Assembly (NCBI RefSeq): GCF_024508335.1
Contig: NZ_CP101988.1
Location: 1,426,001 to 1,490,000 of the forward strand
Source of the DNA: Cellulomonas chengniuliangii
GTDB taxonomy: Bacteria > Actinomycetota > Actinomycetes > Actinomycetales > Cellulomonadaceae
DNA length: 64,000 bases
Reading direction: 5' to 3'
Shown piece after piece: positions 4,941 to 21,430 of the stretch. The first letter of the stretch is position 1. Every line of letters starts with the position of its first letter. The position numbers and the translations under genes were made by a program. Under the pieces are notes generated by a model. It had not been told where the DNA came from, searched no databases, and saw only the letters and a program-made list of their open reading frames with translations.

Positions 4941-5837
4941 ATGGGTACATGGGAAGCAATCGTCCTCGGGCTGGTGCAGGGGCTCACCGAGTTCCTCCCG
5001 GTGTCGTCGAGCGCGCATCTGCGCATCGTCGGCGAGCTCATCGGCTCGGCTGACCCGGGAGCGGCCTTCACGGCGATCACCCAGATCGGCACCGAGACCG
5101 CCGTCCTGATGTACTTCCGGCGGGACATCGCGAGCATCTGCCGCGCCTGGTGGCGTTCGGTGCGCGGGGACCGGGGGGCCGACCTGCGGGCCCGGCTCGG
5201 CGCGCCGCGCGGCCAGGCCCCCGACCACGAGGCCCTCATGGCCTGGTTCATCGCGCTCGGGTCCGTGCCCATCGTGGTGCTGGGCCTGGCCTTCCAGGAC
5301 AAGATCGAGGGCCCGTTCCGCAACCTCTGGCTCGTGGTGCTCACCCTCGCGGCGTTCGCCCTCGTGCTCGGCTGGGCGGACAAGGTCGGAGCCAAGCAGC
5401 GCCCCCTCACCGAGCTCAACACCAAGCACGCGGTGCTGTTCGGGTTCGCCCAGGCCATGGCGTTGATCCCCGGCGTCTCCCGCTCCGGGGGCACCATCAC
5501 CGGTGGGCTGCTGATGGGGTACACCCGCGAGGCAGCGGCCCGGTACTCGTTCCTGCTCGCGCTGCCCGCGGTGTTCGGCTCGGGCCTGTACCAGCTCGCG
5601 AAGAGCGTGGGGGAGTTCGGGCAGAACGGCACGCCAAGCTTCGGCGCGACGCTGGTGGCCACCGTGGTGGCGTTCGCGGTGGGCTACGTCGTGATCATCG
5701 CGTTCCTCAAGATCGTCTCCACGTTCAGCTACCGCCCGTTCGTGGTCTACCGGCTGGCGCTCGCCGCGATCGTCGCGATCCTGCTGCTCACCGGGGTGCT
5801 CGACCCGATCGGCGCCCAGCCTCCCGCGGCGCTGTAG
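4941..5837 (+). CDS. uppP: Undecaprenyl-diphosphatase UppP (BacA)
   Basis: Integral membrane phosphatase that recycles undecaprenyl diphosphate to the monophosphate for cell-wall synthesis; extra copies confer bacitracin resistance. The 298 residues contain the first signature [20 protein letters not shown] with its catalytic Glu region, then the second signature [14 protein letters not shown] with the active-site Arg/Ser, and about eight hydrophobic segments. ATG 4941 has a GGAG Shine-Dalgarno site 6 nt upstream and gives a family-like N terminus. An in-frame GTG at 4929, 8 nt after a TATCGT -10 box (4915-4920), is the alternative start. Confidence 0.95.
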
Positions 5838-5858
5838 GAGGGGCCCACGCACGGCGGT

Positions 5859-5864
5859 TAGGCT
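5859..5864 (+). promoter_or_regulatory. -10 box (TAGGCT) for leaderless mshC
   Basis: TAGGCT ends 6 nt before GTG 5871. Confidence 0.5.
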
Positions 5865-5870
5865 TCCGGC

Positions 5871-7133
5871 GTGCTCACCTGGCCGGCCCCGCAGATCCCC
5901 CAGCTCCCCGGACAGGGAGGCCCCGTCCGAGTGCGGGACACCACCACTGGCGAGCTCGTCGTCGCAGCCCCCGGGCCCACCGCCTCGTTGTACGTCTGCG
6001 GGATCACCCCGTACGACGCCACGCACCTGGGGCATGCCGCCACCTACGTGGCCTTCGACCTGCTGGTGCGCGCCTGGACCGACGCCGGGCAGCGCGTGCG
6101 GTACGCGTCCAACGTGACCGACGTGGACGATCCGCTGCTCGAGCGCGCCACCGCCACCGGCCAGGACTGGCGCGAGCTGGCGCGTGATCAGACGGCGCTC
6201 TTCGCCGAGGACATGACCGCGCTCGGCGTCGTGCCTCCTGACGTGTACACCGGCGCCGTCGAGTCGGTCCCGGCCGTCGTCGAGGCCGTCGAGCAGCTGG
6301 CGGCCGCCGGCGCCGCCTACCGCGTGGGCGTCCCGGACGGGACCGGCCACGGCGCGGACGACGTCTACGCCGACCTGTCCGCCGACCCCGCCTTCGGCGC
6401 GGTGGCGGGCCTCGACCCGGAGACCATGCGCGACGTGTTCGGCGAGCGCGGGGGAGACCCGGACCGGCCGGGCAAGCGCCACCCGCTGGACCCCCTGCTG
6501 TGGCGCGCGGAACGGCCCGGCGAGCCCTCCTGGGACGGCGGCTCCCTCGGGCGCGGCCGTCCGGGCTGGCACATCGAGTGCGCGGTGATCGCCCGTGACG
6601 GGCTCGGCCTGCCGTTCGACGTGCAGGGCGGCGGCGTCGACCTGCGGTTCCCGCACCACGAGATGAGCACGTCCCACGCGCGCCTGCTCGACGCCGGCCA
6701 GGGCGCCGCGCGCCACGTGCACGCGGGGATGGTCGGGCTCGACGGCGAGAAGATGAGCAAGTCGCGCGGCAACCTCGTGCTGGTCTCGCGGCTGCGCGAG
6801 GCCGGTGAGGACCCGATGGCCATCCGCCTCGCGCTGCTCGCCCACCACTACGCTGACGATTGGAGCTGGACCCGCAACGACCTCGTCGTGGCCCGCCAGC
6901 GACTCGAGCGGTGGCGTGCGGCGGTCGCGGGGAACGGCGGCCCCGACGCCACCGCGACCCTCGAGGCGATGCGCGCGGCGATCGCGAACGACCTCGACGC
7001 GCCCGCGGCGCTCGCAGCGGTCGACGCGTGGGCCGCCGAGTCGATCTCCCGGGGCAGCACCGACGACGCCGTCGAGGGGGCGCCCGGCGTGATCGCCCGC
7101 GCGGTCAACACCCTGCTGGGCGTCCGCCTCTGA
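5871..7133 (+). CDS. mshC: Cysteine:1D-myo-inosityl 2-amino-2-deoxy-glucopyranoside ligase MshC (mycothiol)
   Basis: ATP-dependent ligase that joins cysteine to GlcN-inositol in mycothiol synthesis. It is a 420-residue paralogue of class I cysteinyl-tRNA synthetase lacking the tRNA-binding tail. The zinc/HIGH region reads [16 protein letters not shown], with ThxGH in place of HIGH. The GWHIEC zinc site, the FPHHEMS motif and the KMSKS loop ([11 protein letters not shown]) are all present. The MshC-type N terminus ([13 protein letters not shown]) and position next to a PAC2 gene, a common actinobacterial pairing, argue against CysS. GTG 5871 fits a leaderless promoter. It is convergent with the PAC2 gene. 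Confidence 0.95.
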
Positions 7134-7154
7134 CCTGAGGCGGGCGGGGGCGTC

Positions 7155-8018
7155 CTAGCCGCCGGTGCCCTTGTCGCGACGGCGCAGGTACCGCTCGAAC
7201 TCCTGGGCGATGGCCTCGCCGCTCGCCTCGGGCAGCTCGGCGGTGTCCTTGGCCTCCTCGAGCTGCTGCACGTACTCGGCAATCTCGCTGTCCTCGGCGG
7301 AGAGCTCGTCCACCCCGTGCTGCCAGGCGATCGCGTCGTCCGGCAGGTCGCCGAGCGGCACCGGTTCGCCGATCAGGCCCTCGATGCTGGTGAGCAGCGA
7401 CAGCGTCGCCTTGGGGGACGGCGGGTGGGCCACGTAGTGCGGGACGGCCGCCCACAACGACAACGCGTTCAGCCCTCGCGCCTCGGCCTCGTGCTGCAGC
7501 ACGCCGACGATGCCCGTGGGCCCCTCATAGCTGTTGGTCTCCACGCCGAGGCGCTGGCGCACATGCGCGTCCTCGCTCGTGGTGGTCACCGGGATGGGCC
7601 GGGTGTGCGGCACGTCGGCCAGGAGGGCACCGACGGTGACGACCGTGCGCACGCCCAGCCGCTCGGCGATGTCGAGCAGCTCGGCGCAGTAGCGGCGCCA
7701 CCGCATCGACGGCTCGATGCCGTGCACCAGCACCACCTGGCGGCCGGTGCGGGGCGCCGACGCGACAGCCACCGACGTGGTGGGCCACGTGATCTCCCGG
7801 CGCCCGTCCGGCCCGGGGCCGACGATCGGCCGGTTGACCTGGAAGTCGTGGTAGTCCTCGGGGTCGAGCTCCTCGATCTGCTCCGCCGCCCACACCTCGT
7901 GCAGGTGCTCGAGGGCCTGGGTCGCCGCCGATCCGGCGTCGTTCCAGCCCTCGAAGGCGGCCAGCATGATCGGGTCCCTGGTGGGGACGTCGGTCGGGCC
8001 TTGTTCCTGCGCGGTCAT
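7155..8018 (-). CDS. PAC2 family protein (proteasome assembly chaperone 2-like fold)
   Basis: A 287-residue cytoplasmic protein with the PAC2 fold shared with eukaryotic proteasome assembly chaperones and archaeal homologues. The N-terminal AAFEGWNDAGSAATQALEHL, the central VVLVHGIEPSMRW, the TVGALLADVPHTRP strand and the YVAHPPSPKATLSLL segment are typical of actinobacterial PAC2 proteins. A charged C-terminal helix follows (residues about 255-285). ATG 8018 lies 6 nt after a TAGGCT -10 box. It sits about 4 kb from the proteasome genes but is separately promoted. A role in proteasome assembly is not established in bacteria. Confidence 0.88.
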   Translation of the reverse strand: MTAQEQGPTDVPTRDPIMLAAFEGWNDAGSAATQALEHLHEVWAAEQIEELDPEDYHDFQVNRPIVGPGPDGRREITWPTTSVAVASAPRTGRQVVLVHGIEPSMRWRRYCAELLDIAERLGVRTVVTVGALLADVPHTRPIPVTTTSEDAHVRQRLGVETNSYEGPTGIVGVLQHEAEARGLNALSLWAAVPHYVAHPPSPKATLSLLTSIEGLIGEPVPLGDLPDDAIAWQHGVDELSAEDSEIAEYVQQLEEAKDTAELPEASGEAIAQEFERYLRRRDKGTGG

Positions 8019-8024
8019 CACCCC

Positions 8025-8030
8025 AGCCTA
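8025..8030 (-). promoter_or_regulatory. -10 box (TAGGCT) for the leaderless PAC2 gene
   Basis: On the minus strand TAGGCT ends 6 nt before ATG 8018. It sits in the short divergent region shared with the HAD gene. Confidence 0.5.
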
Positions 8031-8110
8031 GGGGCGGCGTCGAGGGCCGACTGGGCAGCAGGGCCGATCAGCGTGGCCCCGCCGCCTCCGAGCAGGTCGA
8101 GGGTCCGGGC

Positions 8111-8116
8111 TACCAT
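8111..8116 (+). promoter_or_regulatory. -10 box (TACCAT) for the leaderless HAD gene
   Basis: TACCAT ends 7 nt before GTG 8124. Confidence 0.45.
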
Positions 8117-8123
8117 CGGCCAG

Positions 8124-8903
8124 GTGCCTGATCCTCTCGACACCGCCCAGCCCGCCCAGCCAGCCCAGAACCCGCGCGTGAGCCACGTCGCCGGGAGCCG
8201 GGCCGGGGCCTCGCCGGCATCTGTGACCGCACTCCCCGCAGCCGTGCTGTGGGACATGGACGGCACCCTCATCGACTCCGAGCCGTTCTGGATCGCCGCG
8301 GAGCTCGAGCTGGCCGCCGCCCACGGCGCCGTGTGGACGCACGCCGACGGGCTCGCCATGGTCGGCAACCCGATGACCACCAGCGCCGCGGCGCTGCGCA
8401 GCCGTGGCGTGGACCTCTCCGACGCGGAGATCTCCGCCTTCCTCAACGTGCGAGTGGCGGCCGGGGTCGCCGCGGGCACGCCGTGGCAGCCCGGCGCGCA
8501 GGAGATGCTCGCCGCGCTCGTGGCCGCGAAGGTGCCAATGGCGCTGGTCACGTCGTCCCACCGGGAGCTCGCCGAGCCGTTCGTGCGGTCCGCGGGCGTG
8601 TTCGACGTCTCGGTGTGCGGTGACGAGGTGGCTCGGCCGAAGCCGGATCCCGAGCCGTACCTGACCGCCGCGGCGTTGCTCGGCGTGGACATCGCGGACT
8701 GCGTGGCCGTCGAGGACTCGCCCGCGGGGATCGCCTCGGCCAGCGCCTCGGGCGCGCACGTGATCGCCGTCGAGGTGATGGTGGGACTCGAGCCGCGGCC
8801 CGGTGTCAGCAGGGTGCGGTCGCTGGCCGATGTGACCCTCGACGACCTCGGCCGGGTGCTCGGCGGCGAGCTGCTCGTGCCGCGCGAGGTCGACAGCGTC
8901 TGA
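8124..8903 (+). CDS. HAD-superfamily hydrolase (beta-phosphoglucomutase/phosphatase type)
   Basis: A 259-residue HAD phosphatase, cytoplasmic. Motif I is WDMDGTLIDSEPF with the nucleophile Asp and acid/base Asp. The alpha-helical cap follows. Motif II is VTSSH, motif III includes the Lys in ARPKPDPEPYL, and motif IV is VAVEDSPAGIASA. The first 30 or so residues are Pro/Ala/Gln-rich and lie outside the fold; the start at GTG 8124 rests on the -10 box, with in-frame GTGs at 8178 and 8223 as alternatives. The substrate is a small phosphorylated metabolite, not identified. It ends in a hairpin shared with the convergent nuclease gene. Confidence 0.88.
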   Translation: MPDPLDTAQPAQPAQNPRVSHVAGSRAGASPASVTALPAAVLWDMDGTLIDSEPFWIAAELELAAAHGAVWTHADGLAMVGNPMTTSAAALRSRGVDLSDAEISAFLNVRVAAGVAAGTPWQPGAQEMLAALVAAKVPMALVTSSHRELAEPFVRSAGVFDVSVCGDEVARPKPDPEPYLTAAALLGVDIADCVAVEDSPAGIASASASGAHVIAVEVMVGLEPRPGVSRVRSLADVTLDDLGRVLGGELLVPREVDSV

Positions 8904-8909
8904 CGCGGA

Positions 8910-8927
8910 CGCGCCCCTCCGGGCGCG
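8910..8927. terminator. Hairpin between convergent HAD and RecB-like genes
   Basis: A 7-bp perfect stem (CGCGCCC and GGGCGCG) with a 4-nt loop lies 7 bp after the HAD stop codon. Confidence 0.5.
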
Positions 8928-8966
8928 CCGCATCCGGCGGCGGCGGGCGTGGACCGCCCGGTCGGC

Positions 8967-9956
8967 TCAGACCGCCGAGGCGGGCTCCACGCCGAGGGCC
9001 AGCCGCACGGCCCCCTCCGGGATCTCCGGCGGGGCGCCGCCGAAGGCGGGGCACAGGTCGCGGTGCGCGCACCAGTCGCACAGCCTCGACTTCCGGGGGC
9101 GCCAGTCCCCGCTGCGCGCGGTCTCCTCGATGCCCGACCAGATCGACCGGACGCGCGCCTCCAGGCTGAGCATCTCGGGCTCGGTGGGCTCGTGGCGCAG
9201 GATGGTGCCGTCGCCCAGGTAGACGAGCTGCAGCATGCGGGGCAGCTCGCCGCGCTCGCGCCACAGCATGAAGGCGTAGAACCGCATCTGGAACAGCGCT
9301 GTGCCCTCGTAGCCGGCCCGGGGCGAGCGGCCCGTCTTGTAGTCCACGACCCGCATGGCGCCGCCCGGGGCGACGTCGAGCCGGTCGACGATGCCCCGCA
9401 GCTGAGGGCCGTCGTCCAGCTGGGTGCGCACCGACATCTCGCGCTCATGCGGCTGCAGCCGGTTCGGGTCCTCGAGGGTGAAGTACGTGTCGAGCAGGCG
9501 CCCAGCACTCGCCAGCCACTCGTCCCACTCGGCCTCCTGAGCGAAGAGCTCGGCGTGCCGGGGCTGCTCGGTGAGCAGCTCGTGCCAGCGTTCGGGGAGC
9601 ATCGCGTGCGCCGCCTCGAGGGTGCGCTGCCCCGCGGGCAGGTCGAACAGGTGCTCCAGCACCGCGTGGACCAGGGTGCCCCGCACCGCTGCCGCGCTGG
9701 GCGGCTCGGGCAGCCGGTCGACGACCCGGAACCGGAACAGCAGTGGGCACTGCAGGAAGTCGTTCGCGCGCGATGGCGACAGGCCGGGCACGGACCGCCG
9801 CACCGGCGCCTCTTCCATGACCGGCTCGGCCCCCACCGCCTCAGCCTCGGCAGATGCGGCCTCGACAGTCACCGGTCCGGGCACGCCGGGCACGAGCCCA
9901 TCGGATCCCGGCGTGCTGCGCTCGGGCGGCTGGAGGGGGGTCTGCGTGGTCGGCAC
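8967..9956 (-). CDS. RecB-family PD-(D/E)XK nuclease with 4Fe-4S cluster
   Basis: A 329-residue stand-alone RecB/AddB-type nuclease. After a proline-rich lead, LSPSRANDFLQCPLLFRFR gives the first cluster cysteine. The nuclease core has GTLVHAVLEHL and VVDYKTGRSP (the D and K of the active site). The last three cysteines come in RLCDWCAHRDLCPAF. The one-plus-three cysteine spacing is that of AddB/Cas4-type Fe-S nucleases. No helicase domain is attached. Genes of this type often neighbour the tRNA methyltransferase and proteasome ATPase in actinobacteria, as here. The start is a GTG 6 nt after a TAGGCT -10 box. Confidence 0.9.
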   Translation of the reverse strand: MPTTQTPLQPPERSTPGSDGLVPGVPGPVTVEAASAEAEAVGAEPVMEEAPVRRSVPGLSPSRANDFLQCPLLFRFRVVDRLPEPPSAAAVRGTLVHAVLEHLFDLPAGQRTLEAAHAMLPERWHELLTEQPRHAELFAQEAEWDEWLASAGRLLDTYFTLEDPNRLQPHEREMSVRTQLDDGPQLRGIVDRLDVAPGGAMRVVDYKTGRSPRAGYEGTALFQMRFYAFMLWRERGELPRMLQLVYLGDGTILRHEPTEPEMLSLEARVRSIWSGIEETARSGDWRPRKSRLCDWCAHRDLCPAFGGAPPEIPEGAVRLALGVEPASAV

Positions 9957-9962
9957 GCGGCA

Positions 9963-9968
9963 AGCCTA
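9963..9968 (-). promoter_or_regulatory. -10 box (TAGGCT) for the leaderless RecB-like gene
   Basis: On the minus strand TAGGCT ends 6 nt before GTG 9956. Confidence 0.5.
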
Positions 9969-10031
9969 GGCGCCGGTCCTGACATGCCGGCTGCGCGCGC
10001 CCGGGTGACCGCTCGGGCGACTACGGGCACC

Positions 10032-10037
10032 TAGGCT
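10032..10037 (+). promoter_or_regulatory. -10 box (TAGGCT) for the leaderless site-2 protease gene
   Basis: TAGGCT ends 6 nt before GTG 10044. It mirrors the divergent -10 box of the nuclease gene about 65 bp away. Confidence 0.5.
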
Positions 10038-10039
10038 GA

Positions 10040-12229
<2,190 letters not shown>

Positions 12230-12240
12230 CCGGCGCGGCG

Positions 12241-12274
12241 CTGCCGCCGACGGTGCGACACGCGTCGGCGGCAG
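12241..12274 (+). terminator. Hairpin terminator after trmI
   Basis: A perfect 12-bp stem (12241-12252 and 12263-12274) with a 10-nt loop separates trmI from mpa. It implies mpa has its own promoter; TAGGGT at 12359-12364 is a candidate -10. Confidence 0.6.
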
Positions 12275-12407
12275 GGCTGGGCGAGGCTGTTCGCGCAGGC
12301 TGCGCGGCTGAGGCGACCACCAGGAGAGAAACGCTCGGCACCCTGCTGCCGTAGAAGTTAGGGTCGTCAGACCAGCACATCGGTGTGCACCTCGGCGGTC
12401 GACCCTC

Positions 12408-12413
12408 AGGAGG
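12408..12413 (+). promoter_or_regulatory. Strong Shine-Dalgarno site of mpa
   Basis: AGGAGG lies 8 nt before ATG 12422. It sets the start and marks mpa as a leadered gene among many leaderless ones. Confidence 0.7.
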
Positions 12414-12421
12414 ACCACACG

Positions 12422-14056
12422 ATGACGGAACCGGCAGCGACTGGCCACGACCTGCAGCGTGAGATCAACCTGCTCGCCGCGCGCAACGAGCGCATCGCCG
12501 AGGCGCTGATGGCGGCCCGCGAGCAGATCGTCGAGCTCAAGCGTCAGCTCGACGATCTGGCAAAGCCCCCCGGGAGCTTCGCGACGTTCCTGTCCGCGCG
12601 GTCGGACGGCACCGTGGACGTCATCTCCTCCGGGCGCAAGATGCACGTCGGCGCGAGCCCGACGCTCGACGTGGACCGGCTGCGCCCCGGCCAGGAGGTC
12701 ATGCTCAACGAGGCCCTGACGGTCGTGGAGGCCGGCGGGTACGAGGACGTCGGCGAGCTCGTCACGGTCAAGGAGCTGCTCGGCGCCAACCGCGCGCTCG
12801 TGGTGGGCCGCGGCGACGAGGAGCGGGTGGTGAGGTTCTCCGGCCAGCTCCTCGAGGACTCGGTGCGCGTCGGCGACGCGCTCACGGTCGAGACCCGCTC
12901 CGGGTTCGTGCTCGAGCGCATCCCCCGGGCCGAGGTCGAGGACCTCGTGCTCGAGGAGGTGCCCGACATCGACTACTCGGACATCGGCGGGCTCGGGCCC
13001 CAGATCGAGGCGATCCGCGACGCCGTGGAGCTGCCGTTCCTTCACCCCGACCTCTTCCGCGAGCACGGGCTCAAGCCTCCGAAGGGCGTCCTGCTCTACG
13101 GCCCGCCGGGATGCGGAAAGACGCTCATCGCCAAGGCGGTGGCCCGCTCCCTGGCGCTCACCGCGGCCAAGGCGCGGGGCGAGGACGGGAACGAGGCGCG
13201 CAGCTACTTCCTCAACGTCAAGGGCCCCGAGCTGCTCAACAAGTACGTGGGGGAGACCGAGCGCCACATCCGGCTCATCTTCGCCAGGGCGCGCGAGAAG
13301 GCGTCGCAGGGGCATCCCGTGGTGGTGTTCTTCGACGAGATGGAGTCGCTGTTCCGCACCCGCGGCACCGGCATCTCGAGCGATGTCGAGACCACGATCG
13401 TCCCCCAGCTGCTCAGCGAGATCGACGGCGTGGAGCGGCTGGACAACGTCATCGTCATCGGCGCCTCGAACCGCGAGGACATGATCGACCCGGCGATCCT
13501 GCGCCCCGGGCGGCTCGACGTGAAGATCAAGATCGAGCGGCCCGACGCAGAGGCCGCCCGCGAGATCTTCGCGAAGTACCTGACGTCGTCCCTGCCCATC
13601 CACGCCGACGACCTGGCCGAGCACGGCGGCCAGGCGGGCGCCGCCGTCGACGCGATGATCACCCGCGTGGTGGAGCGCATGTACTCCGAGACCGAGGAGA
13701 ACCGCTTCCTCGAGGTGACCTACGCGAGCGGTGACAAGGAGATCCTCTTCTTCAAGGACTTCAACTCGGGGGCGATGATCCAGAACGTCGTCGACCGCGC
13801 CAAGAAGTCCGCGATCAAGGACCTGCTGGCCACCGGCCAGCGCGGCGTGCGCGTCGACCACCTGCTCACGGCGTGCGTGGACGAGTTCAAGGAGAACGAG
13901 GACCTCCCCAACACGACCAACCCGGACGACTGGGCGCGGATCTCCGGCAAGAAGGGCGAGCGGATCGTGTTCATCCGCACGATCGTCCAGGGGAAGAAGG
14001 GCGCCGACGCGTCTCGCACCATCGAGACCGTCACCAGCACCGGGCAGTACCTCTGA
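12422..14056 (+). CDS. mpa: Proteasome-associated AAA ATPase Mpa/ARC
   Basis: Hexameric ATPase that binds Pup, unfolds pupylated proteins and feeds them to the 20S core. The 544 residues comprise an N-terminal coiled coil (about residues 8-50, the Pup-binding part), a double OB region, and an AAA domain with Walker A GPPGCGKT near residue 227, Walker B VVFFDEME and sensor-2 region [12 protein letters not shown]. The last residues, TSTGQYL, end in the QYL tail that docks into the proteasome alpha ring in Mycobacterium Mpa. The start is fixed by the AGGAGG site. It is followed by a terminator, so mpa and dop are separate transcripts. Confidence 0.97.
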
Positions 14057-14159: not shown

Positions 14160-14165
14160 GTGCCT

Positions 14166-15776
14166 GTGAGCGTGCGTCGTGTGATGGGCATCGAGACCGA
14201 GTACGGAATCCTCCAACCGGGGCGGCCCAACGCCAACCCCATGCTGCTGTCGAGCCACGTCGTGGCCGTGCACGCCGCAGCGCGCGAGGGAACGCGCACC
14301 CGCGCCCGCTGGGACTACGACGACGAGGACCCGCTGCTCGACGCCCGCGGATTCCACCTCCAGCGGGCGGCCGCGCACCCGTCGTTGCTCACCGACGACC
14401 CGGCGCGGCCCGCGCCGTCCGGCGACGGGCCGCAGGAGCTCGCCCGGTCGCTCGTCGATGAGTACGAGGACCCGGGCGCCGCGAACGTGATCCTCACGAA
14501 CGGCGCCCGGCTGTACGTGGACCACGCGCACCCGGAGTACTCCTCCCCGGAGGTCACCGGCCCACTCGACGCCGTCCGGTGGGACAGGGCGGGGGAGCTC
14601 GTCATGCTCGCGTCCGTGCGAGCCCTCGCGTCGACGCCCGCGCTGCCCGACGTCGCGCTGTACAAGAACAACGTCGACGGCAAGGGAGCCACCTACGGCA
14701 CCCATGAGAACTTCTTGGTGGACCGGGCCGTGCCGTTCACTCAGCTCGCCTCCCGCCTCATGCCGTTCCTGGTGACCCGCCAGGTGTTCACCGGCGCCGG
14801 CCGGGTGGGCCTCGGGCAGCGGGGGGAACGCGCCGGGTTCCAGGTCTCCCAGCGCGCGGACTACATCGAGGCGGAGATCGGGCTCGAGACGACATTGCGG
14901 CGGCCCATCGTCAACACGCGCGACGAGCCGCACGCCGACCCGGACCGCTGGCGGCGGCTGCACGTGATCTTCAGTGACGCGAACCTGCTGGAGGTGGCGA
15001 CCTACCTCAAACTCGGCACCACCTCGCTCGTGCTCTGGCTGATCGAGCAGGCGGAGGCCGGTGGGGCCGACGTCGGCCCCATGCTCGCGACCGTCGACGC
15101 GCTGACGTTGCGCGACCCCGTCTCGGCGACGCGCATCGTGAGTCATGACGTCGCGCTGACCGCGCGCCTGGAGCTCGCGGACGGGCGTCAGATGACGGCG
15201 CTGGAGATCCAGGGCGCCTACCTCGACGCGGTGCGCCAGGCGCTCGCCAGCGTCGGCGGCGAGCCCGACGACGAGACGCGCGACGTGCTCGACCGTTGGG
15301 GGTCGCTGCTGACCAGGCTCGCCGATGACCCGGCCAGCTGCGCCCGAGAGGTGGAGTGGCTGGCCAAGTTGCGGCTGCTCGAGGGCCTGCGCCGCCGCGA
15401 CCACCTGGAGTGGGACAATCCCCGACTCGCGGCCGTCGACCTGCAATGGTCCGACGTGCGGCCCGAGCGCGGCCTCTACCACCGGCTGCTGGCGGCGGGC
15501 GCCGTGGAGACGCTCGTGACTCCTGAGGAGGTCGAGGAGGCCGTCAGCCACCCGCCGCGCGACACCCGCGCCTACTTCCGCGGCGAGGCCATCGCGCGAT
15601 TCGGCCCGCAGGTCTCGGCGGCGAGCTGGGACTCGGTGATCTTCGACGTCCCCGGCGCGCCGACCCTGCAGCGCGTCCCCATGCGCGACCCGTTGCGCGG
15701 CACCGAGGCGCATGTGGGCGCCCTGCTGAAGGCGAGCCCGGACGCGGGGAGCCTGCTCAAGGCGCTGGAGACGTGA
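14166..15776 (+). CDS. dop: Pup deamidase/depupylase Dop
   Basis: Converts the C-terminal Gln of Pup to Glu so that PafA can use it, and also removes Pup from substrates. It belongs to the carboxylate-amine ligase fold shared with PafA and glutamine synthetase. The 536 residues show the nucleotide-binding N terminus (VMGIETEYGILQPG), the Dop-specific acidic loop (RWDYDDEDPLLDARGF) absent from PafA, the catalytic-Asp region LYVDHAHPEYSSPE, and the shared KNNVDGKGATYGTHENF and [13 protein letters not shown] motifs. It begins a separate leaderless transcript after mpa. The next gene on this strand is pup, 5.5 kb away, because of the inserted membrane-protein gene. Confidence 0.96.
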   Translation: MSVRRVMGIETEYGILQPGRPNANPMLLSSHVVAVHAAAREGTRTRARWDYDDEDPLLDARGFHLQRAAAHPSLLTDDPARPAPSGDGPQELARSLVDEYEDPGAANVILTNGARLYVDHAHPEYSSPEVTGPLDAVRWDRAGELVMLASVRALASTPALPDVALYKNNVDGKGATYGTHENFLVDRAVPFTQLASRLMPFLVTRQVFTGAGRVGLGQRGERAGFQVSQRADYIEAEIGLETTLRRPIVNTRDEPHADPDRWRRLHVIFSDANLLEVATYLKLGTTSLVLWLIEQAEAGGADVGPMLATVDALTLRDPVSATRIVSHDVALTARLELADGRQMTALEIQGAYLDAVRQALASVGGEPDDETRDVLDRWGSLLTRLADDPASCAREVEWLAKLRLLEGLRRRDHLEWDNPRLAAVDLQWSDVRPERGLYHRLLAAGAVETLVTPEEVEEAVSHPPRDTRAYFRGEAIARFGPQVSAASWDSVIFDVPGAPTLQRVPMRDPLRGTEAHVGALLKASPDAGSLLKALET

Positions 15777-15895
15777 GCCCGTCCGGGCGCTGACCCGCGT
15801 CAAGCAGGCAGGCGAGTCCGCCTCGCTCACAACGGGCAGACGCCTAAGTCGAGCGTGACGGCATGGGGTCGCACGACGACCGCCGCAGCACGCCG

Positions 15896-18800
15896 TCAGC
15901 GCATCGCCCCGACAAAGCGCACGGCGTCGCGGGCCTCCCGCAGGCGGCGCTCGTACGTCAGGCCGAGTCCGAGGAGAAGTGCTCCGCCGAATGCGAGCAC
16001 CGCCCACCACTCGACGACCCGCATCGCGGCGACGGCCGCCGGGGATGCCTGGATCAGCGCGACCGCGCCCAGCACGAGGCCGCCCAGCAGGAACGGCGCC
16101 TGCCAGCGCAACACAGCGCCCGCGATCACCGCGAGGAGGGCGCCCACGGTGACGAGCAGCAGGCGCCACATGGTGGGGCTGGCCCATGCGGTGGCGAACG
16201 GCACTACGAGCATCAGCACCAGCCCGATCGTCAACGTGGCCCAGCTGTGCGCGTCCGTGTCACGTCGCAACCGGACCACGCCCAGGGCCAGCACCACGAC
16301 GCCCAGGAGCACGACATAGACGTCAGCGGGCACACCCGAGGCCGAGGCCGACGCCGCGCCCGCTGCCGCCGCGACACTGGCGCTGACGACGCCGGTGGCT
16401 ATCGCGCGCCCTCGTGCCGCGCCTGCCTCCACACGCACGCTCACGACGAGGGCCAGAGCGCTCCCGGCAGTCAGCACGGCCAAGGCCCGGAACGATCCGG
16501 CGCTGGTCCCGTCCACGGCCAGCACGCTCGGCGCCAGCGTCACGGCGGCCAGCAGCGGAAGCCCCCACTGTCGTGGCCCGCTGGCCGTGAACGGCCACCG
16601 CCGAGCGGCCAGGATCAGCGTGAGGGCGAGGAGCGTGCCACCCGGCAGCGACCACACCTCGACGTCGCCGACTCCAGGGGCCACCCCGTCTGCTCTGCCC
16701 GCCGCGGGAACCGCGGCGTGGCGCACAGCGACGAGGACGGACAGCAAGGCCGCGCCGAGCAACGGACCGGCGCTTGCCCGCGCCGCCCGGTCGTCATCTC
16801 GCCTGGACAGCATCAGTGCGCCCGCGACGATCAGCACCGTGGAAGCAGCGAGTGCGAGGGGCCCCCGCCAGCCAGCGGCCGGGCCCAGCGCAAGGCACGC
16901 GAGCAATGGCGGGCCGACCACCAGCCACCCGCCGCCCGCGCGTCCACTGGACGCCCACAGCGCTCCGGTGACGGTGACGACGACCCCGCATGCCACCAGC
17001 GGAAGCTCCACGCTCGGGAGGACGCCATGCTGGAGCGCGCCTGGAGTCGCCAGCGCGCAGGCGGCGACCCCGATCGCGACGAGCTGGGCGGCCCGGCCAC
17101 CAGCGGGCGGCGACCACGCCGCCCACCACGCTGTCGCCGCTCCAGCGCACATGACGCAGGCCCAGCGCAGGACGCCGGGCATGTCGGGCCCCACCGCGAG
17201 CGCGGTGGGAAGCACGAGCACGAGCATGACCAGCCACGGCGCGATCTGCGTGACGGCCTGGGCGTTCCGGCCGTCGTCGGCGCGGCGCAGCGCGCGGGTG
17301 GCGGCGACGATCACGCCGCTGGCGGCGATCGTCCACAGCTCGATGTCGACCGCGGACGGTGTGTGAGGCCCGAGCGCCGCGATGGCCGCTGACCGCGCGG
17401 GCCCGGCGAGCACCAGCGCGCCACCGACGAGCACGGTCAGGCGCGAGGCCGAAGGACGGCCGAGTCGTGTGGCCGCGGCGACCAGCGCAGCGCCGACCAG
17501 GAGGGCGGCGAGCATCCGCCACGCGTCGCCCTGGAGCGCCGTCGGCAGGAGCAGGAGCCCGCCCACGCTGAGCCACGAGGCATCCCGGGCCCCGCCGCGG
17601 AGCAGCAGTGCGCCGCTGACGACGAGCAACAGCCCGAGCAGCGAGAAGGGGATGTCCCAGAGTGTGGAGGCGGATGCGGACCCCGTCAGCGCCGCGAGCC
17701 CGGCGAGCGCGAGGCCCACCGGCACTGTCGCGATGCCACCCGGCGTGCGCCAGGATCCCCGCATCGCGCCCCGGAGGGCGAGCATGGCGCACGCGGCGAA
17801 CACCAGGGACCAGCGAGCGACTCCGAGCGTCGACGTGTCGACAGCCATCAGGCTGGGAATGGCCGCCGCGCTGGCTATGACTGGCAGCCCGACGACCACT
17901 GCCGCGCGACGGCTGACGGAGGTCGCGGTGGTGAGCCGCCACCAGGCGAGGCTGATCAGGGCCGCTGCCGGCAGTGACCAGGGCTCCACGTCGGGCAAGC
18001 CCTGCTGCGCGTGGAGGGCGGCGACCGCGGCATGCCACGTCGGGCCGACGAGGAGCACGAGCGCAGCCAGACACAGCAGCACGTCACGACGCGGGCCGGC
18101 GAGGGCGGGAGTCGGCTTCTTCCATGTCCCGCAGGCGACCAGCACGGCCCCAGCGCCCAGCGCGAGCGCGGGGCGGGGCAGGTCCCAGAGTGGGAGGCTC
18201 CCGCCGAGCAGAGCAGTCGGCAGTGTCGCCAGTGCTAGCCCTGAGGCGAGCAGGGGGACGTCGTCGTCTCCGCCCAGGCGACGGCGGCGCAGCGCCACGA
18301 CGAGGAGGACGGCCCCTGTCGGGGCCACATACGCCTCGGGGACGCCCACGCCGCCGTGCAGCAGAAGCACCCACGTCGCCGTGACGCCGAGGCCGAGCGC
18401 CCACCATCGGGCCCACTGGCGGTCGGGTCGCAGCGACCACGCGCCCGCCACCACAGCCGCGACCACCACTGTCAGCGCCAGGCCCCCGGCGCCACCCTCG
18501 TCTCCGACAGTGGCGGCGGCCGCGAGCAGCTGGGTGCCCGCCATCGCCCACGCTGTGACCTCGGCAGCACGGCGCGCGTCCTCGTGGCCGGCGGCCATCA
18601 GCCCGGCGAGGAGGACGCAGGCTCCCGCGGCGGCCGTGACCACCACGGGCAGGGACACGCCAGGCAGGGAGCCACGGGTCGCCATCGACAGGGTGAGGAG
18701 GGTCCCCGGCATCAGCACGCCGCACGCCCCGGCCGCGGCCACCTGCCATAGCGGCCCGAGTGCGGATCGGCCGCGCCGGGCCATGGCCACCGCGGCGAGT

Positions 18801-21073
18801 GCCGCGGTGGCGGTGACGGCGACGAGCGTCGCGCGGTCGAGCCCGGCGGGTCGAGCAGGCAGGGTGAGGGCGCCCCATGTCCATCCGATGACGGAGATCG
18901 CCGCCGCGAGGCTCAGAGCCGAGAGACAGTCGGCGCGGGTCCACGACGACCGGCGCGCCAGTGCCATGGTGACGACGGCCGTCAGCAGCGGCACGGCGAG
19001 GGCCGCCGCCGCCGTCCCGACCGTGAGCCACTCTGCGAGGAGGACTGTGCAGCCCAGCCACAGGAGCGCGAGCGAGGCGGCGAGCAGCGCCGCCCGAGCC
19101 GCTGGCCGGCCAGACGCCCATCGACGCGCGACCCCGCCAGCGACCGCACAGGCGAGGAGTGCGAGGCCGGCCGTCAGGGCGTCGCGCGACCCGATGAGCG
19201 CCACCGCGGGCGCGAGCATGACCAGCGCGCGCAGGGGCGCTCGACCGTCGCCGTCGAGGCGCAGGCCCGCCCCGTCCGCGACATGGGCGAGGGCGGCCAC
19301 ACCGGCGAGCATGAGCACGAGGCCGACGGCGCCCGTCCCCGGCCGACTGGAGACGACCAGGCCGGGCAGCACCAGCACGGCGAGCGCCGTGGCCCATGCG
19401 CTGCCCGTCCTGGCTGCGCGCCACGGCGAGGCGAAAGTCGTCGCCGCGTGGAGCGACAACGCGCCCACGACGATCGCCGTCGCCGCGAGGGGACGCGGCA
19501 GCAGGCGCGCGTCGAAGAGCAGCGCGCCGAGCATTGAGAGGAGCATCACCGCCGAGGGCGTGGCAAGGAGCAGGGTGACGACGAGGGCGCCCCGCGTCGC
19601 GTGACCGGCCGACGCAGGCGCCTTCGGGGGCGTGCCGCCCAGTGCCGCGCCGACGTCCGCAGGGTCGTTGGGCTCCGCGTGAGCCGGGGTCTCGCCCACC
19701 GGCCGCCTCCCCGCCTGCGGCCTGTGAGCCCGGGAGAGGCTGATCGTGACAGCCGCTGCGCCGACCGGCCCCCACGCCCACAAGACGTCGGCCGGGAGCC
19801 CTGTGCGGACGCCCATCGCCGCGACGCCCAGCGCGAGCAGCCCGCCCGCCGTCGTCTCCCACGCCAGCGCGCCGCGCGGATGCCCGCCACGAGACCAGCG
19901 GCCCTGAAGTGCGGCGAGCATGGCGAGCACGAGGAGCGCCGCGACCGGGGACATCGGGGCCGCCGGGGATCGCAGCACGTCGATCGCGGCGACGACTGTC
20001 GCCGAGCCAGTCGCCATCCAGGCGACGCACGCCATGATCCCGCGCTCGAGGCCGCTCCATCCCCGCACCCGCTCGCCGTCCCGCGCCGTGCCGGGCGGGT
20101 GGCCGCCGGCTGCGGCGGTGACGCGCATCGCGAAGCGCGACGAGGCGAGCAGCGCGCTCCCGGCGAGGAGCCATGCGGTGTGCCCCGGCAGGAGTGGGGC
20201 CAGCAGCACCGGCGCCACGGGGAGCAGCACCGCGGCCACGGCGGCGCCGGTCCTGATCCGAGCCAGGTGTCCCCAGGCCCCGAGTAGCAGCGCGCACACC
20301 AGGCACGCGGCGCCTGCGTACAACGCGCCGCTGCTCGGGGCGACGAGCCCGGTGGCGTGCACGGCCCACGCGTCGAGCAGGAGCATCACCGTGCCGATGC
20401 CGCCCACAGCCTCGGCGCTCGACCCCAGTCGCGCCCGTCGCAGGGCTGACGCGGCGACGAACACCACGACGGTGCCGACCCCGATGACAGCCGCACGGCC
20501 GACCAGGCCCAGCCATCCCCAGCTGAAGAGCAGGAACACGACGCAGGCGGCGGCGATGAGGAGGGCGCCGAGCACCTGGAGCACAGTCTGGACGCGCCAC
20601 GCCGCCCGTGCGGGCGCTGGCGCCAACGGGGGAGTGGCCGGATGCGAGGAGGTCGGGCGCACCGGCATGGGCGGGCCAGAGGAGGACGACGGCGGCGGGG
20701 GAGTCGGCGAGGGGGCCGTCGCGACGACGGACGGCAGAGGCGCCGGCAGTGACGGGGTGGCCCACGCCGCTGGCGAGGCCACCGCAGCGGCCGAGGCGGG
20801 CGCCAGCTGGGCGGCGCGGGCGGCACGGCGCCGATGCTGCTCGGCCCGCATCTCGTCGAGGTGCTCGGCCCGGCGGTCGAGCGCGCCGATGGCCTCCTGC
20901 GAGAGGTCCCAGAGGCGGCGCCCGGCCGGGCCCGTCAGATCGAGGCCGCACGCGTCGCATGTGCCCGTCGTGAGCCAGGCCCCGCAGGACGGGCAGGCGG
21001 TGGCGTTGGCCAGCGCCCCGCGAGCCACCTCGATGAGGTCGCGTGGCTGGTCAGGGCGCTGCGGTGAGGGCAT
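15896..21073 (-). CDS. Giant zinc-ribbon polytopic membrane protein (SCO7613 C-terminal-domain type)
   Basis: A 1,725-residue protein on the strand opposite its neighbours, lying between dop and pup. The N terminus has a zinc ribbon with cysteines at about 27, 30, 39 and 42 (CPSCGAWLTTGTCDACG), then a charged helical stretch (about 60-105) and a Pro/Ser/Ala linker. The remaining roughly 1,500 residues are an uninterrupted series of hydrophobic segments with short Arg- or Gly-rich loops; I estimate well over 40 membrane spans. The arrangement matches large actinobacterial proteins labelled SCO7613 C-terminal domain-containing membrane protein; I know of no function. No enzymatic motif is visible. 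ATG 21073 is chosen; ATG 21082 is possible, and neither has a Shine-Dalgarno site. Confidence 0.75.
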   Translation of the reverse strand: MPSPQRPDQPRDLIEVARGALANATACPSCGAWLTTGTCDACGLDLTGPAGRRLWDLSQEAIGALDRRAEHLDEMRAEQHRRRAARAAQLAPASAAAVASPAAWATPSLPAPLPSVVATAPSPTPPPPSSSSGPPMPVRPTSSHPATPPLAPAPARAAWRVQTVLQVLGALLIAAACVVFLLFSWGWLGLVGRAAVIGVGTVVVFVAASALRRARLGSSAEAVGGIGTVMLLLDAWAVHATGLVAPSSGALYAGAACLVCALLLGAWGHLARIRTGAAVAAVLLPVAPVLLAPLLPGHTAWLLAGSALLASSRFAMRVTAAAGGHPPGTARDGERVRGWSGLERGIMACVAWMATGSATVVAAIDVLRSPAAPMSPVAALLVLAMLAALQGRWSRGGHPRGALAWETTAGGLLALGVAAMGVRTGLPADVLWAWGPVGAAAVTISLSRAHRPQAGRRPVGETPAHAEPNDPADVGAALGGTPPKAPASAGHATRGALVVTLLLATPSAVMLLSMLGALLFDARLLPRPLAATAIVVGALSLHAATTFASPWRAARTGSAWATALAVLVLPGLVVSSRPGTGAVGLVLMLAGVAALAHVADGAGLRLDGDGRAPLRALVMLAPAVALIGSRDALTAGLALLACAVAGGVARRWASGRPAARAALLAASLALLWLGCTVLLAEWLTVGTAAAALAVPLLTAVVTMALARRSSWTRADCLSALSLAAAISVIGWTWGALTLPARPAGLDRATLVAVTATAALAAVAMARRGRSALGPLWQVAAAGACGVLMPGTLLTLSMATRGSLPGVSLPVVVTAAAGACVLLAGLMAAGHEDARRAAEVTAWAMAGTQLLAAAATVGDEGGAGGLALTVVVAAVVAGAWSLRPDRQWARWWALGLGVTATWVLLLHGGVGVPEAYVAPTGAVLLVVALRRRRLGGDDDVPLLASGLALATLPTALLGGSLPLWDLPRPALALGAGAVLVACGTWKKPTPALAGPRRDVLLCLAALVLLVGPTWHAAVAALHAQQGLPDVEPWSLPAAALISLAWWRLTTATSVSRRAAVVVGLPVIASAAAIPSLMAVDTSTLGVARWSLVFAACAMLALRGAMRGSWRTPGGIATVPVGLALAGLAALTGSASASTLWDIPFSLLGLLLVVSGALLLRGGARDASWLSVGGLLLLPTALQGDAWRMLAALLVGAALVAAATRLGRPSASRLTVLVGGALVLAGPARSAAIAALGPHTPSAVDIELWTIAASGVIVAATRALRRADDGRNAQAVTQIAPWLVMLVLVLPTALAVGPDMPGVLRWACVMCAGAATAWWAAWSPPAGGRAAQLVAIGVAACALATPGALQHGVLPSVELPLVACGVVVTVTGALWASSGRAGGGWLVVGPPLLACLALGPAAGWRGPLALAASTVLIVAGALMLSRRDDDRAARASAGPLLGAALLSVLVAVRHAAVPAAGRADGVAPGVGDVEVWSLPGGTLLALTLILAARRWPFTASGPRQWGLPLLAAVTLAPSVLAVDGTSAGSFRALAVLTAGSALALVVSVRVEAGAARGRAIATGVVSASVAAAAGAASASASGVPADVYVVLLGVVVLALGVVRLRRDTDAHSWATLTIGLVLMLVVPFATAWASPTMWRLLLVTVGALLAVIAGAVLRWQAPFLLGGLVLGAVALIQASPAAVAAMRVVEWWAVLAFGGALLLGLGLTYERRLREARDAVRFVGAMR

Positions 21074-21187
21074 GTGGCACATCGTGGCGCACGCCGGGGG
21101 CCCGCTGTGCGGGTATTCCACAGGCGTCGTCTGCGGGGCTGTCCGCAGGGTGGACCGCTTCAGTCGGACCGGGTGCGGGGCAGGGCC

Positions 21188-21193
21188 TAGTGT
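21188..21193 (+). promoter_or_regulatory. Candidate -10 box (TAGTGT) for the pup-prcB-prcA operon
   Basis: TAGTGT lies about 40 nt before pup, leaving room for the GGAGGT Shine-Dalgarno site at 21223-21228. A weak TCGGAC sits at -35 spacing. Just upstream an inverted repeat (CTGCGG...CCGCAG, 21131-21148) could be an operator. Confidence 0.35.
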
Positions 21194-21232
21194 GGGAGCA
21201 GCACGACTCGCTCAGCACACCGGGAGGTCACG

Positions 21233-21430
21233 ATGGCTGGTCAGGAACATGGTCGGGTCCGCCGCGACGAGGACGAGCCGGTCGACGGCCCGGAGGTCCC
21301 CACGCCGTCGGCGCCTGCGGCCCAGACCCGCGACGCCGAGGTCGACGCCCTCCTCGAGGAGATCGACGAGGTCCTGGAGTCCAATGCGGAGCAGTTCGTG
21401 CGCGGGTTCGTGCAGAAGGGCGGTCAGTGA
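21233..21430 (+). CDS. pup: Prokaryotic ubiquitin-like protein Pup
   Basis: A 65-residue, mostly disordered tag that is attached by isopeptide bond to lysines of proteins bound for the proteasome. The N-terminal half is charged and proline-rich; residues about 33-60 (EVDALLEEIDEVLESN and EQFVRGFVQ) form the helix that pairs with the Mpa coiled coil. It ends in GGQ, so the Gln must be deamidated by Dop before ligation. GGAGGT lies 4 nt before the ATG. It is followed after 6 bp by prcB, the standard pup-prcB-prcA order. Confidence 0.98.
   Translation: MAGQEHGRVRRDEDEPVDGPEVPTPSAPAAQTRDAEVDALLEEIDEVLESNAEQFVRGFVQKGGQ

Follow-up and report, generated by a model that had tools for sequence, protein, structure and literature searches.

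The window analysed here, a stretch of 64,000 nucleotides from Cellulomonas chengniuliangii, carries a Pup-proteasome locus that is interrupted by a very long gene. On the plus strand, Pfam models revealed in order an M50 protease (10044), the proteasomal ATPase (12383), Dop, Pup, PrcB, PrcA, PafA and FKBP (24502). A Pup that ends in GGQ, as in this strain, is the form which requires deamidation prior to ligation. The giant gene splits the dop-pup junction on the opposite strand and is convergent with dop and divergent from pup (Table 1). As the sequence-only reading had proposed, it consists of a single minus-strand frame between the two genes, which is open over 1,725 codons and encodes 1,725 residues. 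The earliest in-frame start is a GTG at 21121, but we favour the ATG at 21073 since the aligned homologue L004 carries MPSSQRPDQP at this point.

Table 1. Coordinates of the giant membrane protein gene, its parts and its neighbours in the window.
Feature	Coordinates	Strand	Evidence
dop, convergent neighbour	14160..15776	+	PF03136 (Pup_ligase), 607 bits
SCO7613-family membrane protein CDS	15896..21073	-	open frame; NF047321, 141.4 bits; in-frame conservation in 38 genomes; dN/dS ~0.34
C-terminal SCO7613_CTERM domain, residues 1544-1725, with terminal half unit and RWQAP, TYERR motifs	15899..16444	-	NF047321, 8-188 of 188
Eight-helix unit 3, residues 1353-1574	16352..17017	-	unit HMM, 196 bits (self-seeded)
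Eight-helix unit 2, residues 1137-1347	17033..17665	-	unit HMM, 195 bits (self-seeded)
Eight-helix unit 1, residues 909-1133	17675..18349	-	unit HMM, 204 bits (self-seeded); odd/even module self-alignment
First conserved transmembrane module, residues ~160-260	20294..20596	-	Q, R, E, D positions at least 90% conserved across the family
Pro/Ser/Ala-rich linker, residues ~90-157	20603..20806	-	sequence; homologue model without regular structure there
Charged helix C-terminal to the ribbon, residues ~48-88	20810..20932	-	sequence; corresponds to helix H30-57 in the homologue (L101) model
Putative zinc ribbon, Cys27, 30, 39, 42 (CPSC...CDAC)	20948..20995	-	Cys nearly invariant in family alignment A4; L101 model pLDDT 74-85
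Divergent intergenic region, 159 bp, with pup-side motif (GGGCCTAGnGTGG; TAGTGT ~21188-21193)	21074..21232	.	motif also before pup in several insert-free relatives
pup, divergent neighbour, product ends GGQ	21233..21430	+	PF05639, 77 bits; translation

A search of the protein against Pfam returned no match, and its orphan appearance results from the use of Pfam alone. The NCBIfam model NF047321 (SCO7613_CTERM), whose curated cut-off is 45 bits, covers the C-terminus with 141.4 bits and is matched by 35 of 36 aligned homologues as well. The protein is thus a member of the widespread and already known actinobacterial family of SCO7613-type membrane proteins. That the frame is no gene at all and arose by chance in DNA of 74% GC could be argued from the long overlapping frames on the opposite strand (740 aa) and from a third-position GC content (0.88) below that of the neighbouring genes. 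This is so improbable as to be negligible given the 141-bit family match, the conserved cysteines, the in-frame conservation at the protein level in 38 genomes and a dN/dS of about 0.34 against the two nearest relatives (68-69% identity), and we therefore regard the gene as real. The corresponding ratios are 0.09-0.12 for dop and 0.03 for pafA, and dN amounts to 0.22-0.23 in the giant protein versus 0.03 in Dop, a roughly seven times faster non-synonymous change. The gene is fast-evolving yet under purifying selection.

The insertion has spared a motif upstream of pup. The motif GGGCCTAGGGTGG precedes pup next to the insert and also in several relatives without it; since these insert-free relatives carry the same motif, the insert lies outside of it and has left it intact. 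A GGGCCTAGGGTGG-like motif is conserved roughly 40-60 bp 5' of pup in Cellulomonas and several relatives and possibly represents the -10 region of the pup promoter. A consensus scan of positions 15700-21300 detected neither sigma-70 promoters nor intrinsic terminators and did not pick up this motif, and Rfam gave no match over the whole window. At both insert junctions, a search for the ends of a mobile element (terminal inverted repeats, target duplication, transposase) found no convincing repeat pair, and the insert is one SCO7613-family gene; insertion as a mobile element was rejected. An anti-phage defence gene was likewise rejected, with no family of the PADLOC models matching at E≤1.

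The overall anatomy described by the sequence-only reading, a soluble N-terminal four-cysteine ribbon followed by a charged helix, a Pro/Ser linker and a long hydrophobic body, was confirmed, and the body comprises about 1,560 residues since the hydrophobic part begins near residue 160. The four ribbon cysteines are at least 90% conserved in alignment A4; the ribbon is present in the homologues L096 and L101 and visible in the sequence of L102, and all zinc-ribbon Pfam matches in relatives are below threshold. At the other end of the protein, R-W-Q-A-P and the E of TYE are invariant across the family alignment. Counting of membrane spans, which had been suggested as a check, gave 36-44 by hydropathy at the two looser thresholds tried. 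An AlphaFold model of residues 855-1725 (871 residues; mean pLDDT 75.9, pTM 0.57, 20 sequences) contains 30 hydrophobic helices. Together with 15 hydropathy spans in the rest of the protein, this brings the estimated total to about 45-50 helices.

Much of this length is built from repeats. Scanning the family C-terminal profile over the protein yielded four matches (848, 1069, 1285 and 1511) at a spacing of about 220 residues. We cut the C-terminal half at the modelled helices into seven modules (m1-m7) and aligned them pairwise. Odd modules align best with odd ones (z of 4.7 for m1-m3 and 5.0 for m3-m5, against only 0.4 for m1-m5; 2.7-3.0 for pairs that include the truncated last module), and even modules with even ones (z of 5.9-9.5), while odd-even pairs do not exceed a z of 2.0. 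The repeating unit therefore has eight helices, and an ancestral repeat of four helices, which would require odd-even homology, was rejected since good scores were confined to odd-odd and even-even pairs. A unit profile was seeded with the three units of the window protein and rebuilt from 40 matched units; the scores of the window protein in Table 1 are consequently inflated. According to this profile, Cellulomonas sp. URHD0024 carries one unit (in a protein of 1,212 aa), many species carry two, and the group of the window protein carries three plus a terminal half copy. Across species the units cluster largely by position; near orthologues are 62-66% identical and the copies inside the window protein 27-28%, which indicates that the duplications are old and have been retained. 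These alignments reveal, as a new feature of the family, that the membrane body expands by tandem duplication of an eight-helix unit of about 220 residues, from one to three copies.

The window protein resembles S. coelicolor SCO7613 and its relatives (NF047321) in its C-terminal domain, which scores over the cut-off, in the layout of ribbon, linker and polytopic body, and in the RWQAP and TYE motifs. It differs in its size (1,725 residues versus about 800 in Streptomyces-like genomes), in its three eight-helix units, whereas the compact homologues L096 and L101 have only the terminal half, and in its location in the Pup locus. A further likeness concerns DUF2157 (PF09925), which has been described as the transmembrane part of LiaF in the PSP/Lia envelope-stress systems (PMC11237479). 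The first membrane module of L096 (residues 150-220) approaches this model with E=1.4e-6 and 28.6 bits, below its cut-off of 32.4 bits, and PF09925 does not match the window protein itself. In contrast to LiaF systems, the DUF2154/toastrack domain is absent, and no lia or psp gene was identified among the neighbours. With the Pup-proteasome system (Mpa/ARC, Dop, Pup, PrcB, PrcA, PafA) the giant gene shares its locus, but neither sequence relationship nor co-occurrence. In a 2021 review of the Pup locus, the term "membrane protein" does not appear (PMC8223512).

To place the insertion, we compared 222 genomes from the family of the window genome, Cellulomonadaceae, which here takes in Sanguibacter, Sediminihabitans and others; 61 genomes of the family were sampled for locus layout. 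Pup was present in 61 of 61, and the SCO7613 family scored over the cut-off in 20. The sequence-only reading had noted that dop and pup are adjacent in the better-known actinobacterial loci, and the comparison agrees: they are adjacent in 55 of the 61, and in the other six, the window genome among them, the giant gene separates the two. Sediminihabitans luteus, which belongs to the 55, has the giant gene between pafA and FKBP instead. Since adjacency prevails and no outside family showed the gene near pup, the occupied dop-pup site is the derived state. A clade-specific C-terminal profile applied to all 222 genomes split the matches into 38 close homologues (at least 118 bits) and 44 distant ones (at most 72 bits). 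All 38 close homologues reside in the Pup locus: 37 occupy the dop-pup slot next to dop, and one lies at pafA-FKBP. For four of the 37, which lie on broken contigs, the dop side alone is visible. In the dop-pup cases with both sides seen, the giant gene is always on the opposite strand and divergent from pup. Around the distant homologues examined, no Pup-locus gene was found within the 7-20 kb fetched for each. Residence in the Pup locus is thus a long-standing property of one clade (Cellulomonas/Sanguibacter), which is newly recognised here. In total, 104 of the 222 genomes have the SCO7613 family. Genomes with a Pup-locus copy show no clear second match elsewhere among the matches listed, which suggests that Pup-locus and other-site copies substitute for one another in a single job.

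The copy of S. luteus (L008/L089; L008 of G060, 5372-10690) is the only close homologue away from dop-pup and is convergent with pafA. As dop and pafA are paralogues, the giant gene points in both slots at the 3' end of a member of the Pup_ligase family. In another genome of the same family (L062, G004), tblastn detected pup, dop, ARC and pafA, but neither prcB nor prcA turned up in the pup-pafA interval.

A class survey found the SCO7613 family in 79 of 247 genomes, and neither this nor the order survey revealed a family gene near pup in any family besides that of the window. Co-occurrence with pup, proposed earlier as a check, was not observed: in the order, the family was detected in 9 of 20 Pup-less versus 41 of 198 Pup-positive genomes, eight of the nine Pup-less carriers being complete genomes of one Pup-less family (f19). 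The sister clades B and D (support 100) are located at sites other than the Pup locus. In clade D, from other species of a Cellulomonas-like genus (g20), 11 of 13 loci share the same MFS neighbour; positional conservation is therefore ordinary here, and synteny alone does not imply function, since this clade is comparably conserved in position at an unrelated site. The neighbours in other lineages include no proteolysis genes; a permease, an exonuclease, a TPP enzyme, a desaturase and Ada/AlkA are mutually unrelated, and no operon partner is conserved across clades, as the neighbours differ between them. The gene tree unites the Pup-locus proteins with weak support (SH-aLRT 61) and nests Sediminihabitans among Cellulomonas proteins. 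Mapped onto a tree of Pup-system proteins, occupancy of dop-pup requires five changes (six over all three states). A single insertion would accordingly demand several losses, and losses, transfer or repeated insertion must have happened.

At a larger scale, genomes of the Streptomyces-like group (f37) in which a single contig carries both genes have the form of about 800 aa at 97-150 kb from pup, with one exception at about 1.2 Mb. Including a second family, the distance is about 97-157 kb in f37 (G440, G477, G529 and others) and f45 (G448, G522, G634), hinting at an old shared chromosomal neighbourhood of the family gene and pup across both groups.

The sequence-only reading had offered two options, a membrane-anchored adaptor or sensor with a link to protein turnover and a simple insertion, and had named scattered homologues that are equally common without Pup as the pattern that would remove a functional link. 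For the family as a whole this pattern holds, with unrelated sites and Pup-less carriers, but the close clade, with 38 of 38 copies in the Pup locus, departs from it. Insertion fits better, and the distribution does not support a Pup link, for which position remains the sole argument. Such a link would imply that in Cellulomonas and Sanguibacter the repeat-expanded SCO7613 protein, with its 45-50 or so helices, has turned into a partner of the Pup-proteasome at the membrane, that selection keeps its gene at dop-pup or pafA-FKBP, and that the ribbon docks a protein of the Pup pathway. The 38 of 38 close homologues, the Sediminihabitans copy that is off dop-pup and still in the locus, the recurrent orientation divergent from pup and the purifying selection on the gene all speak for this idea. 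We nevertheless consider it improbable: the family is common among Pup-less genomes and missing from most Pup-positive relatives, clade D is similarly syntenic at an unrelated site, the promoter-like motif of pup is unaltered by the insertion, and the protein evolves about sevenfold faster than Dop at non-synonymous sites. Most likely, the position beside Pup is inherited rather than functional; the Pup-less carriers, a class survey in which no copy outside the window's family is adjacent to pup, the synteny of clade D and the unrelated neighbours elsewhere all favour descent. Our preferred reading, to which we assign a probability of roughly 0.6, is that a repeat-expanded membrane scaffold or sensor of the SCO7613 family was inserted next to Pup by chance and has been inherited there. 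The gene would have entered upstream of the promoter-like motif of pup in an ancestor of the Cellulomonas/Sanguibacter lineages, would have been inherited in place, and would have been lost or placed elsewhere in other lineages, its product doing the ordinary job of the family with no part in pupylation. Against chance insertion and inheritance speak the residence of 38 of 38 close homologues in the locus, one of them at a second slot, the five changes in dop-pup occupancy on the tree of Pup-system proteins, and the SH-aLRT of 61 for the Pup-locus clade. A gene that occupies a well-studied locus in 38 of 38 cases and belongs to a family not tied to the Pup system provides a concrete test of guilt by position.

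As to what this ordinary job may be, a role as envelope scaffold or sensor is tentatively the most likely, since the first module of a compact homologue resembles DUF2157, described as the transmembrane part of LiaF. The disordered linker would tether a presumably cytosolic zinc ribbon and helix to the membrane body, in which a conserved first module is joined by a variable middle, the tandem eight-helix units and the conserved C-terminal domain; the large body would respond to membrane state, and the ribbon would recruit a cytosolic partner. Two points argue against it, namely that no partner gene is conserved and that the deletion phenotype of SCO7613, a lower polyhydroxyalkanoate (PHA) content, indicates no specific mechanism. 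A transporter, channel or lipid-linked enzyme, whose active site would consist of polar residues conserved in the first and the last module (Q, R, E, D; RWQAP; TYE), with the units as added scaffold, is rather unlikely. These residues lie in or beside membrane helices and show little or no variation within the family, and it is the first and the last module that were modelled with confidence in L101. However, no transporter family matched, and the structure-based search of the membrane body proposed earlier returned no significant match: with Foldseek, neither of two AlphaFold models matched a PDB fold at E≤0.001. A chain of the ESX-3 core complex (6sgw_B) was rejected as a fold relative (E 0.23, not significant), and helical-repeat matches to soluble proteins were rejected as probable artefacts of shallow-alignment models; a PDB sequence search with the family profile gave nothing meaningful. 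Far less probable still is a PHA synthase or a direct enzyme of the PHA pathway, as proposed for SCO7613. In S. coelicolor, loss of SCO7613 reduced PHA, by 41% when measured spectrophotometrically and from 124 to 104 mg/L by GC; the deletion was complemented and did no harm to growth (PMC8313934). The authors themselves judged the effect indirect (PMC8313934), no PhaC or alpha/beta-hydrolase match was found in Pfam or NCBIfam, and the body consists of hydrophobic helices. The open literature on SCO7613 and DUF2157 offers little beyond PMC8313934 and PMC11237479. Roughly one in three of the sampled class genomes has the SCO7613 family, whose series of one-, two- and three-unit proteins is natural material for asking what giant polytopic bodies do.

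In Cellulomonas timonensis (L005, G055; about 11,900-12,700), the ribbon with its linker and the membrane body are found in separate frames, the linker being broken by unrelated sequence and a stop. This could reflect an error in the draft or a natural separation of ribbon and body.
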